DNA of 64,000 nucleotides from Clostridiales bacterium (GTDB lineage Bacteria > Bacillota > Clostridia > Saccharofermentanales > Saccharofermentanaceae): the NCBI GenBank assembly GCA_017427465.1, contig JAFRST010000043.1, positions 55,942 through 119,941 on the forward strand. Reading direction: 5' to 3'. Each line of letters begins with the position of its first letter. Positions within the stretch are counted from its first letter, which is position 1. This document shows, one piece after another, positions 7,170 through 50,277 of this stretch. Both the position numbers and the translations under genes were made by a program. Under the pieces are notes generated by a model. The model was not told the DNA's origin. It was given only the letters and a program-made list of their open reading frames with translations, and did no database searches.

Positions 7170-8927
7170 ATGGGTATATATTCGATATTGTTGGCTGTAG
7201 TGATGGTGCTCAGCATGCTGTCTACTTTTGCACTCGTCCTCTTCTCAAGACGAGGTGCTAAGACGCTTGAGATTTTAGTCTCCGGATGCATCATGATCAG
7301 CAATATCGGCTATTTTGTTCTCTCATGCTCCAGTTCCATGGGCGAGGCTGTTCTCGCTAACTCCCTGACTTATGTCGGCGGCCTCTTTTTGCCGCTCCTG
7401 ATCGTTTATATCCTCATCGACTATTCTGATTCCAAGGTCCCAATCTGGTTTACGGGTACGATGATCCTTATCAATATCCTCGTTTTCGTAACAACATTGA
7501 TCCCCGAGAGAGCTCCGCTCTTTTATTCGGCAATGAGATTTATAGAGGGCGATCCTTCAAGACTCATTAAGGAACCCGGACCGGCATATTATGTCAAGTT
7601 CATCATACTGACCGTTGAGCTGGCTCTTGTAGCCTTCTTTACGATCCTTACATACCTTGGCAGAAGAAACGCTTCATTCAGGCTCATGCTCATCTATTTC
7701 GGTTCTTTGGTAGGAGCTGTTGTTGTTTATCTGACAAGACGTATCTTTAATCTTCTTTATGATCCGCTTCCATTCTTCTATCTTATTTGCTCGTTTATGC
7801 TCGATTATGTAGTAACCAGAGCGACTATCTATGACGTCAATCTGAGTGTCCAGGAGAAGATAGATGAGCTAAGTACTTACGGCTATCTCGTATTTGACAG
7901 GAAGTTCCGTTATGTCGGAAGCAACCCGGTGGCAGAGAAGTTCTTCCCTGAGATCGCAAATATGAGAATCGATGCCAAGATCATTGCCAAGGATTACGCC
8001 CTCAAGGATCTTCTTAAGTGGGTCATCGCAAATGCCACTGAAGCTAATGAGTCCAAGAAGACCAGCGGCAAGTTCAAGAAGGCAATCGTTATCAATGACA
8101 GAAGCCCCAGTGACAGAAGACACCTTGTATGCGAGATGAGCTTTATCCACTTCGGATTAAATAACCACGTCACCGGATATCTCGTCGAGATCAACGATGA
8201 TACAGAGCAGCACAACATGATCGAGTCCATGAGCTTCAGGGGTGAGTCACTGCAGCGTGAGGCTGAGCGTCAGGCCAAGAGAGCCAAGTCGATGCAGATG
8301 TCCACCATCCTCGGTATGGCTGCCATGATCGAATCACGTGACAACTCCACAGGCGGTCACATCAACAGAACATCTGCCTGCGTAGCTCTCTTCGTAAATC
8401 ACCTGAAGAAGCTTGATGACTATAACATGAGCGAGAACTACTGGGATGCGGTTATCAACGCTGCTCCTCTCCACGACCTCGGTAAGATCATGGTAGATGA
8501 TGCTATCCTGAGAAAGACATCCGGCCTTACGGAAGATGAGTATGACAAGATGAAGCAGCATGCCTCAGCAGGTGCGGAGATAATGAGCAAGGTCCTTGAA
8601 GACGTTGACGATAAAGAGTTCGTAAGAGTAGCTACCAATGTTGCGCACTATCATCACGAGAAATATAACGGCACCGGCTATCCTGACAGATTAAGAGGCG
8701 AGAATATCCCGTTCGAAGCAAGGATAATGGCTCTGGCAGACGTTTTCGATGCTCTCGTAAGCAGACGTTATTACAAGGAAGCCATGTCCTACGATGAGGC
8801 ATTCCATATCATCAAGACAGAGCTCGGACACCACTTCGATCCGCATCTCGGTCGCATATTCATCTCGATCAAGATGGATATCATTGATCTGTATGAGTCG
8901 TTCGAAAAGACCGATTACGCAAGATAA
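7170..8927 (+). CDS. Membrane HD-GYP domain protein, probable c-di-GMP phosphodiesterase
   Basis: Integral membrane signalling protein. Residues 1 to about 220 form about seven hydrophobic helices, like the 7TM sensor of histidine kinases. About 230-350 is a PAS-like sensor. About 365-585 is an HD-GYP domain with the HDLGK metal motif near 435, HHEKYNGTGYP near 494-504 and a later ALADVFDAL stretch. HD-GYP domains hydrolyse cyclic di-GMP; the metal-binding and GYP residues are all present, so activity is likely. ATG 7170 follows AGGGTGA closely; GTG 7164 is an alternative. It is transcribed divergently from birA and ends at a terminator. Confidence 0.9.
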   Translation: MGIYSILLAVVMVLSMLSTFALVLFSRRGAKTLEILVSGCIMISNIGYFVLSCSSSMGEAVLANSLTYVGGLFLPLLIVYILIDYSDSKVPIWFTGTMILINILVFVTTLIPERAPLFYSAMRFIEGDPSRLIKEPGPAYYVKFIILTVELALVAFFTILTYLGRRNASFRLMLIYFGSLVGAVVVYLTRRIFNLLYDPLPFFYLICSFMLDYVVTRATIYDVNLSVQEKIDELSTYGYLVFDRKFRYVGSNPVAEKFFPEIANMRIDAKIIAKDYALKDLLKWVIANATEANESKKTSGKFKKAIVINDRSPSDRRHLVCEMSFIHFGLNNHVTGYLVEINDDTEQHNMIESMSFRGESLQREAERQAKRAKSMQMSTILGMAAMIESRDNSTGGHINRTSACVALFVNHLKKLDDYNMSENYWDAVINAAPLHDLGKIMVDDAILRKTSGLTEDEYDKMKQHASAGAEIMSKVLEDVDDKEFVRVATNVAHYHHEKYNGTGYPDRLRGENIPFEARIMALADVFDALVSRRYYKEAMSYDEAFHIIKTELGHHFDPHLGRIFISIKMDIIDLYESFEKTDYAR

Positions 8928-8963
8928 AACGCTGTTCCGTAGAGTGGGACAGCGTTTTTTATT
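8926..8963 (+). terminator. Intrinsic terminator after the HD-GYP gene
   Basis: The arms AAAACGCTGTTCC and GGGACAGCGTTTT pair, followed by a run of T. The 5' arm starts inside the stop codon. Confidence 0.9.
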
Positions 8964-8976
8964 TCAACGTGTTTTT

Positions 8977-9093
8977 CCAATTGTTGCGATTTGGAGACTC
9001 CAAGAGGGCGAAATAGTCTCCATTTAGTCTTTTTTCGGCGAAAATGACTTTTTGGAGACTGTTTTGGCCTCGAAAAGTCTCCATTTCAGTTAT
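8977..9093. repeat. Word-repeat intergenic element, GGAGACT type (element A)
   Basis: Non-coding stretch between two convergent genes, containing GGAGACT or its complement AGTCTCC four times, plus an AGTC/GACT pair in the middle. This gives three potential hairpins in a row. Its reverse complement matches 50107-50222 nearly base for base over about 115 bp. It begins about 15 bases after a terminator. Confidence 0.85.
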
Positions 9094-14342: not shown

Positions 14343-14474
14343 ATATATTCAGGTTGCTCCCCATAATTGTTGATGATTTTATTATCAGTTAAGCATTGTA
14401 CCATTACAATCGCTTTCTATGGAAATAGTGAGTTAATTGGGTTAGCTATTTGGTATGGTTGTCTCAAACGCTCT

Positions 14475-14590
14475 GATGACCGAAATGGTGACTCTTTTGA
14501 GAAAAATAGTCACCACTTGAGTCATAAATAGGAGAAAATGACTATTTTGGTGACTTATCTGGGCAAAAGAGTCAACATTTCAGTCACTAT
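14475..14590. repeat. Word-repeat intergenic element, GGTGACT type (element C)
   Basis: It has the same layout as the elements at 8977 and 50107, but the word GGAGACT is replaced by GGTGACT and its complement by AGTCACC, so the first hairpin stays perfectly paired. The central AGTC/GACT pair is also kept, and the flanks gAAATGG and ACCATTTCgg are shared. The third hairpin is imperfect. It lies just downstream of the feo operon terminator on the minus strand. Confidence 0.75.
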
Positions 14591-14619
14591 GATATCGAAA
14601 AAACGAAGCAATAATGAGT

Positions 14620-14648
14620 GAGGCTGCCTCAATAATGAGACAGCCCCT
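14620..14648 (-). terminator. Terminator of the feo operon, GGCTGCCTCA family
   Basis: The arms GGCTGCCTCA and TGAGACAGCC have a four-base loop. The T tract on the minus strand is weak. Closely similar stems occur at 50241 and 60416. Confidence 0.65.
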
Positions 14649-14679: not shown

Positions 14680-14856
14680 TTATTTATGTTGACTGTGACA
14701 TTTGCCGGCCATTGCGCAATGAGAGCAGTTGCATCCGCAGGAGCTCTTGCCGGCTTTTTTGTCTTTTATCAAGCTCCTGGCGGCAAAGAATATAGCGACA
14801 GCAACAAGTGCTATTACCAATATGTTTACCCAGTTTGCAGCAAGCCAGTCAATCAT
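14680..14856 (-). CDS. FeoB-associated Cys-rich membrane protein
   Basis: A 58-residue gene that starts one base after the feoB stop. It begins MIDWLAANWVN, has one membrane helix (about 10-27), a short basic linker (KDKKAGK), and then a cysteine cluster CGCNCSHCAMAGKC. This matches the small FeoB-associated Cys-rich proteins found after feoB in Firmicutes; they probably assist ferrous iron transfer at the membrane, though their exact function is unproven. Size, position and motif all agree. It ends the feo operon and is followed by a terminator. Confidence 0.9.
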   Translation of the reverse strand: MIDWLAANWVNILVIALVAVAIFFAARSLIKDKKAGKSSCGCNCSHCAMAGKCHSQHK

Positions 14857-14857
14857 A

Positions 14858-17287
14858 TTATGCAGCCTTTACCTTTAATTGTTTCTTCGCAGGCCTTACA
14901 AGGAGGTAGATAAGAACTGCAAGGACGATGAGAGCAGCGATCAGACCGATAACATTTACGGAACCTGAGAAAAGGAGACCGAACTGATATACGAGGAGTG
15001 CAATAGCATAAGCGAATACACACTGATAACCGATTGCGAACCATGTCCACTTAGCACTGTTCATCTCTCTCTTGATAGCGCCGATAGCAGCGAAGCAGGG
15101 AGCACAGAGGAGGTTGAAGATAAGGAACGCGAAGCCGGATATCTGGTTCAAGCCTTCGAAGTCAAGGACACCGAATACGCCGACAACTTCTTCCTTAGCA
15201 ACAAGGCCCATGATAGTAGCGATCGTAGCCTTGATATTTGCAAATCCGAGAGGAGCGAAGATCCACTTAATACCGCTTCCGATCATACCAAGAACGGATG
15301 CTTCAAGTTCCATATCAGGATCAAATCCGAATCCGCTTCCGGTATTGCCGAATACCGAGCCAAGCCATACAACGATGGAAGAGAGCAAAATGATCGTTCC
15401 TGCTTTCTTAATGAAGGACCATCCTCTTTCCCACATTGATCTTAAGAGATTACCTATTGTAGGCCAGTGGTATGCAGGGAGCTCCATTACGAACGGAGCA
15501 GGATCGCCTGCGAAGGGCTTTGTCTTCTTAAGCATGATTCCCGAGATGATTACTGCGGCTACACCGATAAAATATGTAGACGGAGCAATCCAGGCACCGC
15601 TCCATAAGGAGTGACGGAACAAAGCCGCTGTGATCAATGCGATGATAGGAAGCTTAGCTCCGCAGGGGATAAATGTTGTTGTCATGATAGTCATTCTGCG
15701 GTCACGCTGATTCTCGATCGTACGTGAAGCCATGATACCGGGAACGCCGCAGCCCGAACCTACAAGCATCGGAATGAACGACTTGCCGGAAAGACCGAAT
15801 CTTCTGAAGATCCTGTCGAGTACGAAAGCTACACGTGCAAGATATCCGCAGGATTCAAGGAATGCAAGAAGGAAGAACAGGACGAGCATCTGAGGAACGA
15901 ATCCCAGTACTGCGCCGACGCCGCCGATGATACCGTCAATGACAAGGCCTGTAACGAAATCATTTGCGCCTGCGCTCTCAAGCCATCCTGATACAAGGTC
16001 AGGGATACTGGGAACGAAGACTGCACCTTCAGTCTCATCCATGCCGGGAGTCGTAAATTCGCCATCTTCCAAAGCACCTGATTCGACAAGAGGAGCTTCG
16101 ATATCGTAGCCCTTATCGATCAATTCATCTGCGTAGAATCCGTAATCTTCTTCGAAGGCACCGAAATCAGCATCTTCAAAGTCAGCCTGAAGCTTCTCGG
16201 CACCGGTAATATCATTATCTGCTGCTTCATCGATAACTGCTTTTACACCGTCAATGAAAACTGCTTCGCCGGCCCAGTTATCGACATCCTCGTCGTACTG
16301 TTTCTGGCCGATACCGAAAAGGAAGAATCCGTCACCGAATAAGTTGTCGTTAGTCCAATCCGTCAGATTTGCGCCAAAAGTCATCATGGCGATGAAATAA
16401 ACAATGAACATAACAGCCGCAAAGATCGGCAGACCGAGAATCCTGTTTGTTACGACCTTATCGATCTTGTCTGATGTGGAGAGCTTAGCCTTATTCTGCT
16501 TTTTATAGCAGCTCTTGATAATGGAAGCGATATAGACGTAGCGTTCGTTTGTGATAATGGATTCCGCATCGTCGTCAAGTTCTGTTTCGGCTGCTTTGAT
16601 GTCATTTTCAATATGATCGAGTTTTTCTTTTGAGATTCCGAGTTTCTCGATTACTTTCTCATCGCGCTCGAAAACCTTGATTGCATACCATCTCTGCTTA
16701 TCCGGATCCATGTCGTGAAGCACTGCTTCTTCAATGTGAGCCAATGCGTGCTCAACGGGACCTGAGAAAGAGTGGGGAGGTATGGTCTTAGTTCCTTCTG
16801 CTGCCTTGATAGCTTCTTCAGCGGCTTCCATAATGCCGGTTCCCTTAAGAGCAGAGATTGCGACTGCCTTGCAGCCCATCTGCTTTGTGAGCATTTCAAG
16901 GTCGATCTTGTCGCCGTTTTTATTAACGACATCCATCATGTTGACTGCCATTACTACAGGAATGCCGAGCTCTGTAAGCTGTGTTGTGAGATAGAGGTTA
17001 CGCTCTAAGTTAGTACCGTCAACGATGTTAAGGATAACATCCGGATTTTCATCGATTAAGTAGTTACGTGCTACGACTTCTTCCAGTGTGTAAGGTGACA
17101 GGGAATAGATACCGGGAAGGTCTGTGATGGTAACACCTGAATGCTTTTTAAGCTTACCTTCCTTTTTCTCAACAGTTACGCCCGGCCAGTTACCGACGAA
17201 CTGATTGGAACCCGTAAGAGCGTTGAATAGAGTAGTCTTACCGCTGTTCGGGTTACCTGCTAATGCGATCTTTATTTCTTTAGCCAT
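14858..17287 (-). CDS. feoB: Ferrous iron transport protein B
   Basis: GTP-driven Fe(II) importer. The N-terminal G domain shows GNPNSGKTTLF (residues 10-20), DLPGIYSL near 57 and NMMD near 120, followed by the helical GDI-like domain and then the membrane pore with two Gate segments (LVGSGCGVPGI near 515; PCFAAIGAIKRE near 730). The 809 residues exceed the family's common length because of an acidic insertion at about 330-435 in the first extracytoplasmic loop. It lies between feoA and a Cys-rich gene and is expected to be under the iron-box promoter upstream of feoA. Confidence 0.97.
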   Translation of the reverse strand: MAKEIKIALAGNPNSGKTTLFNALTGSNQFVGNWPGVTVEKKEGKLKKHSGVTITDLPGIYSLSPYTLEEVVARNYLIDENPDVILNIVDGTNLERNLYLTTQLTELGIPVVMAVNMMDVVNKNGDKIDLEMLTKQMGCKAVAISALKGTGIMEAAEEAIKAAEGTKTIPPHSFSGPVEHALAHIEEAVLHDMDPDKQRWYAIKVFERDEKVIEKLGISKEKLDHIENDIKAAETELDDDAESIITNERYVYIASIIKSCYKKQNKAKLSTSDKIDKVVTNRILGLPIFAAVMFIVYFIAMMTFGANLTDWTNDNLFGDGFFLFGIGQKQYDEDVDNWAGEAVFIDGVKAVIDEAADNDITGAEKLQADFEDADFGAFEEDYGFYADELIDKGYDIEAPLVESGALEDGEFTTPGMDETEGAVFVPSIPDLVSGWLESAGANDFVTGLVIDGIIGGVGAVLGFVPQMLVLFFLLAFLESCGYLARVAFVLDRIFRRFGLSGKSFIPMLVGSGCGVPGIMASRTIENQRDRRMTIMTTTFIPCGAKLPIIALITAALFRHSLWSGAWIAPSTYFIGVAAVIISGIMLKKTKPFAGDPAPFVMELPAYHWPTIGNLLRSMWERGWSFIKKAGTIILLSSIVVWLGSVFGNTGSGFGFDPDMELEASVLGMIGSGIKWIFAPLGFANIKATIATIMGLVAKEEVVGVFGVLDFEGLNQISGFAFLIFNLLCAPCFAAIGAIKREMNSAKWTWFAIGYQCVFAYAIALLVYQFGLLFSGSVNVIGLIAALIVLAVLIYLLVRPAKKQLKVKAA

Positions 17288-26485: not shown

Positions 26486-26497
26486 TTGTTACAGTTG

Positions 26498-26557
26498 TGT
26501 AACATTGTTACAAAACTTGTAATTTTGGGAATTGCCTGTTTGTGTAACATTGTTACA
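26498..26557. promoter_or_regulatory. Two identical 15-bp palindromes
   Basis: TGTAACATTGTTACA occurs at 26498-26512 and again at 26543-26557, 45 bp apart, in the region between the regulator stop and its terminator. Each is a perfect 6+3+6 palindrome. They may be operators for a dimeric protein; which one is unknown. Confidence 0.6.
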
Positions 26558-43243: not shown

Positions 43244-43622
43244 TGGTGGAGATGAGGAGAATCGAACTCCTGTCCGAAACCTCTTCCTCCGGGACAATCT
43301 CCGGGTGCAGTCGACGGATGAATTATTCCTATTCCCGCGTGGCCCATCGACGGGCGTCGGTTCCAGTAGCTTCATAAGATTAAAGTCGCTAGCCGGCGCA
43401 AAGCTTAACCGGTAGGACTGCCTGCTTAACCTCTCTCAGGCGAGGTCTTCGGTGTACGTACACTCCCGCGAGAAGATAGGCGGGAGGACGGTAGCCTTAG
43501 GCTGCTACGAGCTCTGTGTTGTCTGCAATTACTTGCAATTCCCCGTTTTTTAAGGAGGCACAACGAGGATCCTCCACCCGCTTTCCCGACCTCAGAAGCC
43601 CCGTCGAAACCAGTGCATCCCC
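43244..43622 (-). ncRNA. ssrA: Transfer-messenger RNA (tmRNA)
   Basis: Rescues stalled ribosomes and tags the broken peptide. The 5' end GGGGATG pairs over 7 bp with CATCTCC before the encoded CCA at the 3' end. The T-arm GTTCGATTC is near the 3' end and the characteristic GGTTTCGACGGG is near the 5' end. The tag frame is at 43497-43544: after AAAAAAC it reads GELQVIADNTELVAA and ends TAA. It is a one-piece tmRNA of about 379 nt. The tag's resume codon is inferred from the AAAAAAC context. Confidence 0.95.
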
Positions 43623-50106: not shown

Positions 50107-50222
50107 TAACTGAAATGGAGACTATTCGAGCCCGAAATAGTCTCCAAAAAGTCATTTTCGCCGGAAAAAGACTAAATGGAGACTATTTTGCCCTCTTGGA
50201 GTCTCCAAATCGGCACAAATGG
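50107..50222. repeat. Word-repeat intergenic element, GGAGACT type (element B)
   Basis: Inverted copy of the element at 8977. The first hairpin is GGAGACTATT/AATAGTCTCC (perfect 10 bp), the second is AGTC...GACT with TTTTC/GAAAA inside, and the third is GGAGACT/AGTCTCC. Differences from the other copy fall mostly in loops. It lies between two convergent genes, beyond the terminator of the minus-strand one. Confidence 0.88.
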
Positions 50223-50240: not shown

Positions 50241-50277
50241 GAAAAAAGGCTGCCTCAGTAATCTGAGACAGCCTTAA
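50241..50277 (-). terminator. Intrinsic terminator of the minus-strand plsC gene
   Basis: On the minus strand, AAGGCTGTCTCAG pairs with CTGAGGCAGCCTT and is followed by TTTTC. It belongs to the GGCTGCCTCA terminator family. Confidence 0.9.

Follow-up and report, generated by a model that had tools for sequence, protein, structure and literature searches.

Why does a short array of inverted words behind the feoB genes of a Clostridiales bacterium (Saccharofermentanaceae) keep the plan of its sister arrays while spelling it with a different word? The array, element C (14472..14593, edges ±2 bp, no strand assigned), lies in a 64,000-nucleotide stretch of contig JAFRST010000043.1 (hereafter the window), in which two more elements, A (8993..9082, plus strand) and B (50117..50206, minus strand), follow the same array plan with the word GGAGACT and a period of 61. 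The first-pass annotation had offered two readings of the difference, namely that base-pairing is under selection, or that whole words are exchanged by some copying process. We found arrays of this kind beside genes of predicted PD-(D/E)XK-type nucleases, and the reading that we favour, at a probability of about 0.62, is that element C is one of them and was likely dispersed by such a nuclease, which would know a private word.

Element C and its empty counterpart

Element C comprises eight words in a fixed register: the outer word GATGACC (14475..14481, plus strand, register position −12), the inner word GGTGACT (14487..14493, plus, position 0), its reverse AGTCACC (14508..14514, minus, 18), the outer-word cores AGTC (14520..14523, minus, 30) and GACT (14540..14543, plus, 50), the inner word GGTGACT again (14549..14555, plus, 62), an uncompensated reverse, AGTCAAC (14570..14576, minus, 80), and a last core AGTC (14582..14585, minus, 92). 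As first annotated, GGTGACT faces AGTCACC in the first hairpin where A and B have GGAGACT and AGTCTCC, and the central AGTC (14520)/GACT (14540) pair is retained. Other parts of that description needed correction: the change was compensated in the first hairpin but not fully in the second, and of the outer flanks AAATGG/CCATTT the shorter AAATG/CATTT is kept and the exact form lost, with AACATTT on the right side. Spacing differs as well, with 18 from GACT to AGTC and 12 from AGTC to AGTC in C, where A and B have 19 and 11. That element C is real is borne out by its folding, which is far stronger than that of shuffled DNA, with a single-strand energy of −25 kcal/mol versus −8.6 in shuffles (z = −7.5, 0 of 200 shuffles as good; z = −7.4 for A and −5.4 for B), and its lowest-energy fold is one long hairpin spanning the whole element, not three separate ones.

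The site is empty in a close relative. This genome (G000, a 2.59-Mb assembly, 85% complete) and G023, one of the genomes of the genus that are likewise given G numbers, are colinear across the region, with FeoB 92% and the nuclease 82% identical; window positions 14440-14621 correspond to only ∼30 bp in G023, where element C is absent and the flanks are intact. The best joint (16 of 20 bases, tied with one other placing) yielded a 122-bp insert at about 14472-14593 with a duplication of at most ∼2 bases. Gain of C in this genome is likelier than its loss in G023, because other relatives also are without it. Element A was not used for the same comparison, its alignment to G023 not being clean because the terminator is missing there as well.

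Orthologous sites were located by a FeoB-like gene of 809 aa (14858..17287, minus strand) and an adjoining small gene (14680..14855, minus strand), which we take to encode FeoB and a Cys-rich protein, respectively. feoB was matched in 80 of 83 genomes and 30 loci were taken, of which two were unread and two ended by contig edges; by eye, nine carried an array, 16 had none and one was unclear. The arrays differed in word: GACT in G000, TTCCAG/GTCGGAC in G005, G033 and G059, a weaker AGTCAACTTTT array in G078, G025 and G020, GTGC in G008, and in G043 a TTCACG/GGGACACG array together with a nuclease gene, which tblastn found as well. Sharp-edged presence and absence with several array kinds at one site is also what one would see if the arrays were miniature inverted-repeat transposable elements of some other transposase, with the nuclease genes as passengers or as sharers of insertion hot spots behind terminators. 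We regard this as unlikely: 43 of 66 nuclease loci have arrays in their flanks whose words are particular to the locus, word sharing drops with nuclease identity (both below), and Y1 tyrosine transposases (PF01797), the one family sought to the exclusion of other transposase families and insertion-sequence libraries, were absent from G000, G005, G023, G032 and G057, with seven matches in G007.

Arrays beside a predicted nuclease gene family

A 266-aa open reading frame (ORF) at G000:C41 is bracketed by two arrays, and its homologues adjoin GACT-word arrays in G023, G007 and G032. Of 83 genomes of the genus, 82 have a homologue, G067 being the sole one without a match; a homologue in Butyrivibrio was listed too. 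Among 66 sequences, E147 and D179 were conserved in all 66 and E194 and K211 in 65 each; in a 62-sequence set E147, D179 and K211 were invariant and E194 stood at at least 90%, while the classical ExK is replaced by EHxG. The E147/D179/E194/K211 set agrees with a PD-(D/E)XK catalytic centre, of which these would be the putative catalytic residues. In the confidently predicted structure (pLDDT 89) the C-terminal part aligned to Bax1, TnsA, Can2 and type II enzymes; a sequence comparison of the protein with solved structures gave no match, and its C-terminal part matched the PADLOC candidate PDC-S68 weakly (7e-10). No plasmid or phage carrier was found by tblastn; among viral contigs there was one weak 61-residue match. 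Ahead of the nuclease start, at least two TGTCG words, mostly 10 bp apart, were present at 63 of 67 loci and in none of the control stretches, so that the region looks like a constant control region beside a variable array. These words lie in the 160 bp before the start (L157-L226), often followed, by eye, by a TATAAT-like box.

For flank counts, 70 loci were taken from the top of the homologue list and three repeat places removed, leaving 67 distinct nuclease loci, each oriented by the strand of its nuclease gene. A word-blind detector required that three or more five-letter words each be present two or more times in both orientations in a span of 125 bp. It flagged the upstream flank at 22 of 67 loci and the downstream flank at 31 of 66; either flank was flagged at 43 and both at 10 of 66 loci, as against 1/65 and 1/62 far stretches; shuffles gave 15/335, 14/330, 14/325 and 24/310 for upstream, downstream and the two far sets, respectively. 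At five words the counts were 13/67 upstream, 15/66 downstream and 26/66 loci, with 0/65 and 0/62 far stretches and 3/335, 4/330, 2/325 and 4/310 in shuffles. In 450-bp flanks, inverted 6-mer pairs exceeded all 60 shuffles with z ≥ 5 upstream at 16 of 67 loci and downstream at 26 of 66, versus 0/65 and 0/62 stretches 650-1100 bp away. The far stretches are likely mostly coding; in a second control made of intergenic gaps, the three-word detector flagged 9/107 in G005, 3/88 in G067 and 4/19 in the window, all below the nuclease flanks. A strict two-stem search found units at 23 of 67 nuclease loci; for genome-wide use it was too noisy and was replaced by the word-blind detector. At the feoB sites the latter flagged 7 of 30, two of them empty by eye, and missed four arrays seen by eye. 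The words at nuclease loci vary, including TTGCA, TTCACG/GGAACACG, TCCGACT, TCGTCAA, TCCAACT and others. One further intergenic word array in the window (26487-26557) is built of GTTACA/TGTAAC with spacings of 19, 45 and 64 and gave seven words in the detector.

The genome without the nuclease was compared with G005 in a 400-kb sample each, this being one nuclease-free genome. At three words, G067 had 25 clusters (shuffle 14) and G005 58 (shuffle 21); at five words, 1 (by eye, a repeat in coding sequence; shuffles 0-2) versus 13 (shuffles 0-3), those of G005 falling at eight array-like places by eye; and at six words, 1 versus 5. In intergenic gaps, 0/88 versus 5/107 were flagged at five words.

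Geometry was likewise common to the flanks. Taken together from 132 near flanks that had been trimmed at the promoter end, direct 7-mer repeats peaked at 62 bp (bin 60-64: 102, versus 18.4 in shuffles and 39 in far stretches) and 12 bp (bin 10-14: 60, versus 26.4 and 23). Side peaks stood at 48-50 and 74, i.e. 62 minus and plus 12, and further peaks at 27 and 111 without explanation; far stretches had 10 to 54 direct repeats per bin. Symmetry centres in the near flanks were most often 29-31 bp apart. Elements A, B and C have this same geometry of a 62-bp period and 12-bp word pairs. Some arrays in the G005 sample had 61-63 bp and others 51-53 bp, periods of about six and five helical turns, which hints at a protein reading the words on double-stranded DNA.

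A repeat array adjoining a nuclease gene whose promoter region is conserved, together with the weak PDC-S68 match, could also suggest a toxin-antitoxin or defence pair, in which the repeat RNA would inhibit the nuclease in a type III-like manner and solo arrays would be decoys or remnants. This seems to us quite improbable, as the arrays stand upstream, downstream or on both sides of the gene, are dispersed where there is no such gene, and at element C sit behind a terminator-like hairpin.

Concerted change of words

Searched by BLAST against its own genome, element A gave 14 matches and element C gave eight, some being the same place on opposite strands, and arrays were read at 12 places. Eighteen copies fell in register, with positions 0, 30, 50 and 80 common to both types and the inner word at 19 and 61 in A-type copies but at 18 and 62 in C-type copies; a single copy, from G007, was off by one base. 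At G000:C48 an A-type array is fused to a C-type array (L008), and at what is apparently the same site in G023 (G023:C34, L114) there is one hairpin, so unit number changes. The pattern GACT-N14..15-AGTCNNC-N4..5-AGTC gave 11+10 matches in G000 versus 1+0 in the reversed control and 7+7 versus 1+1 in the relative G005, and was close to control in most of 59 genomes. A covariance model built from 36 half-elements and searched at E ≤ 1e-4 found GACT-word arrays in seven of 85 genus genomes, this one included. In a genome collection the pattern occurred in four stretches, three of them Catellatospora (two) and Novosphingobium, and in viral contigs there was none. G007 at C1 retained the A-type spacing, yet all four words were GGTGACT; G032 had GCCGACT/TCCGACT at some places and mixed GTGACT, GAGAGT and GTGYAGT words at others.

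Are the arrays then selected as RNA or DNA hairpins, for instance at transcript ends, with compensated changes keeping the pairing and the nuclease incidental? Strong folding agrees with this, as does position: terminator-like hairpins lie ∼26 bp ahead of element C in transcription direction, behind the feoB genes (14620..14647, minus strand), ∼34 bp ahead of A (8926..8958, plus) and ∼39 bp ahead of B (50246..50275, minus), so that all three elements are 26-39 bp behind such hairpins, and one hairpin inside B (50146-50116) itself scores terminator-like. In the covariation test that the first-pass annotation had called for, the 36 half-elements scored 0.112, whereas shuffles scored 0.077 and reached that level once in 500 (the shuffles do not preserve the relatedness of copies); the score dropped when partners were slid. 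Paired cells made up 90.7% versus 88.5% in shuffles (2/500), and pairs changed on both sides numbered 3 versus 3.5; 16 of 18 doubly changed cells came from one pair, columns 3/27 (UA 18, AU 16, other 2), because whole elements switch word.

The comparison within and across hairpins tells against pairing as the main signal. Inner words were unequal in 14 of 18 elements. In these, word positions 1-3 mismatched in 19 of 84 cases within hairpins and equally in 19 of 84 across them; words sharing an orientation mismatched in 13 of 84, which is consistent with duplication of a 62-bp unit. The right array at G000:C41 has GGAGACT opposite AGTCACC, uncompensated, and G032 arrays mix non-complementary words. 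As mismatches are equal within and across hairpins and the C41 array is uncompensated, hairpin-specific pairing is not shown; hairpin covariation was rejected as the main signal on the same comparison. Pairing in the short spacers that separate two words is as expected (31 of 98, 0.32 versus 0.34). Unpaired spacers are a feature of integron attC sites, and an attC-like selection for them, suspected by eye, was dropped on these same interior positions. Hairpin selection moreover leaves unexplained why the layout clusters at one gene family and why the element is absent from G023, and we consider it improbable. A known Rfam RNA family was ruled out as the identity of the arrays: with Rfam 15, nothing on arrays at eight loci passed the cut-off, the one match, to a miRNA family, being below the gathering score, and the sole match in the window was the tmRNA gene (43244-43622, minus strand).

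The change is instead concerted, an element altering nearly all of its words at once, and since whole arrays keep their layout while the word changes, exchange of whole words by a copying process is the better supported of the two readings. The word tracks the linked nuclease rather than the neighbour gene, and differs between species at two fixed neighbours. One is feoB; at the other, five species have a nuclease at the same position upstream of one gene (start matched by eye), presumably a glycosyltransferase gene. The nucleases of G020, G005, G050 and G078 at this locus are 65-70% identical to that of G000, and the local words, read by eye, are GACT in G000, GGACGG in G020, TTGACG/CTGTACG in G005, TTGCCAA in G050 and TTGCA in G078. 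Dispersed copies of the local word were sought in G000, G005 and G078, with G020 and G050 left out, and found in all three; the G078 nuclease array recurs at C4:239078 and C7:128425, and that of G005 is, by eye, the first module of dispersed ∼330-bp repeats whose other module is a GACT-word array. These G005 composites span 330-400 bp with several word arrays (L047, L057, L062, L064-L066, L093, L097); the right end often abuts a terminator T-run, and some copies have internal deletions or other modules.

Over 58 loci with at least three words, pairs sharing at least two array words numbered 10 of 22 at nuclease identities of at least 75%, 6 of 111 at 60-75%, 20 of 675 at 50-60% and 9 of 845 below 50%. 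Common descent of the DNA contributes to this sharing among similar nucleases; the comparison suggests that word and nuclease change together.

A nuclease-driven spread would then run as follows. The protein would cut DNA and recognise the words of its own array; cutting and copying would spread arrays in trans, making the nuclease their probable mover, and words and nuclease would co-evolve, whereby an entire array would take on its new word at once. On this reading, the arrays would be non-autonomous mobile DNA kept by a vertically inherited enzyme, and element C would have been carried by such a nuclease to its site behind the feoB terminator.

Relation to known palindromic systems

REPINs are REP doublets that go with a REP-associated tyrosine transposase (RAYT). 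In the studied strain, every RAYT has its own kind of REPIN beside it, and REPINs are dispersed, mostly extragenic elements of several kinds per genome, with RAYTs rarely transferred at species level (PMC3116915). The arrays resemble this system, described by Bertels and Rainey, in their inverted palindrome units, in their dispersal outside genes (outside ORFs in the window, elsewhere by eye) and in an enzyme gene flanked by its own palindrome type. They differ in the enzyme, which is PD-(D/E)XK-like where a RAYT is a Y1 HUH transposase; in their words, where none of those read has a GTAG or CGTC tag and a constant core AGTC/GACT gives way to other words elsewhere; and in being multi-hairpin arrays with a 62-bp period and widely different words between loci. 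RAYT was rejected as their general partner, since Y1 is absent from five of the six array-bearing genomes tested (of these five, G005 and G032 are 99-100% complete and G000 85%; the sixth is G007, with mostly partial matches). The seventh array-bearing genome, G060, lay outside that search, and across the genus Y1 was present in 16 of 58 genomes. Given this absence and the missing GTAG tag, the arrays would be REPIN-like in logic without being REPIN members, kept as REPINs are by RAYTs yet by an unrelated nuclease. CGTC-tagged REPs are palindromic repeats reported to lack a transposase of their own (PMC3733652); element C has no CGTC tag, and here a dedicated gene family is linked. For the enzyme, the nearest comparisons are the nuclease domains of TnsA from Tn7, Bax1 and Can2-Card1.

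In type III toxin-antitoxin systems, a short repeat array adjoins a small nuclease gene, and the present loci share that arrangement; they differ in their inverted two-word palindromes, in the array standing on either side of the gene and in the dispersed solo arrays. Our literature search, mostly outside subscription journals, yielded no paper on nuclease-linked arrays of this kind, and the main text of one REP survey does not contain the words ‘nuclease’, ‘Clostridia’ or ‘Saccharofermentans’ (PMC12306157). We lean, by a little more than even odds, towards a kind of selfish DNA that the sources searched do not describe. A PD-(D/E)XK-like nuclease and its palindromic arrays would share a private word; at one and the same locus this word would be replaced completely from species to species, whereas the 62-bp scaffold of six helical turns would not change. 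Such a system would be a bacterial counterpart of rapid co-evolution between enzyme and target, and it would seed arrays behind terminators genome-wide.

Where the literature accessible to us names an enzyme for dispersed palindromes, they are explained through RAYT or IS200-like transposases. Here a genus-wide, multi-copy gene family of apparently different fold seems to keep palindromic arrays by the same logic, with a word that appears freely replaceable. If true, the genus would offer a natural series of enzyme-word pairs from which the evolution of nuclease sequence choice could be learned, and, beside the RAYT system, a new route for the origin of intergenic palindromes.
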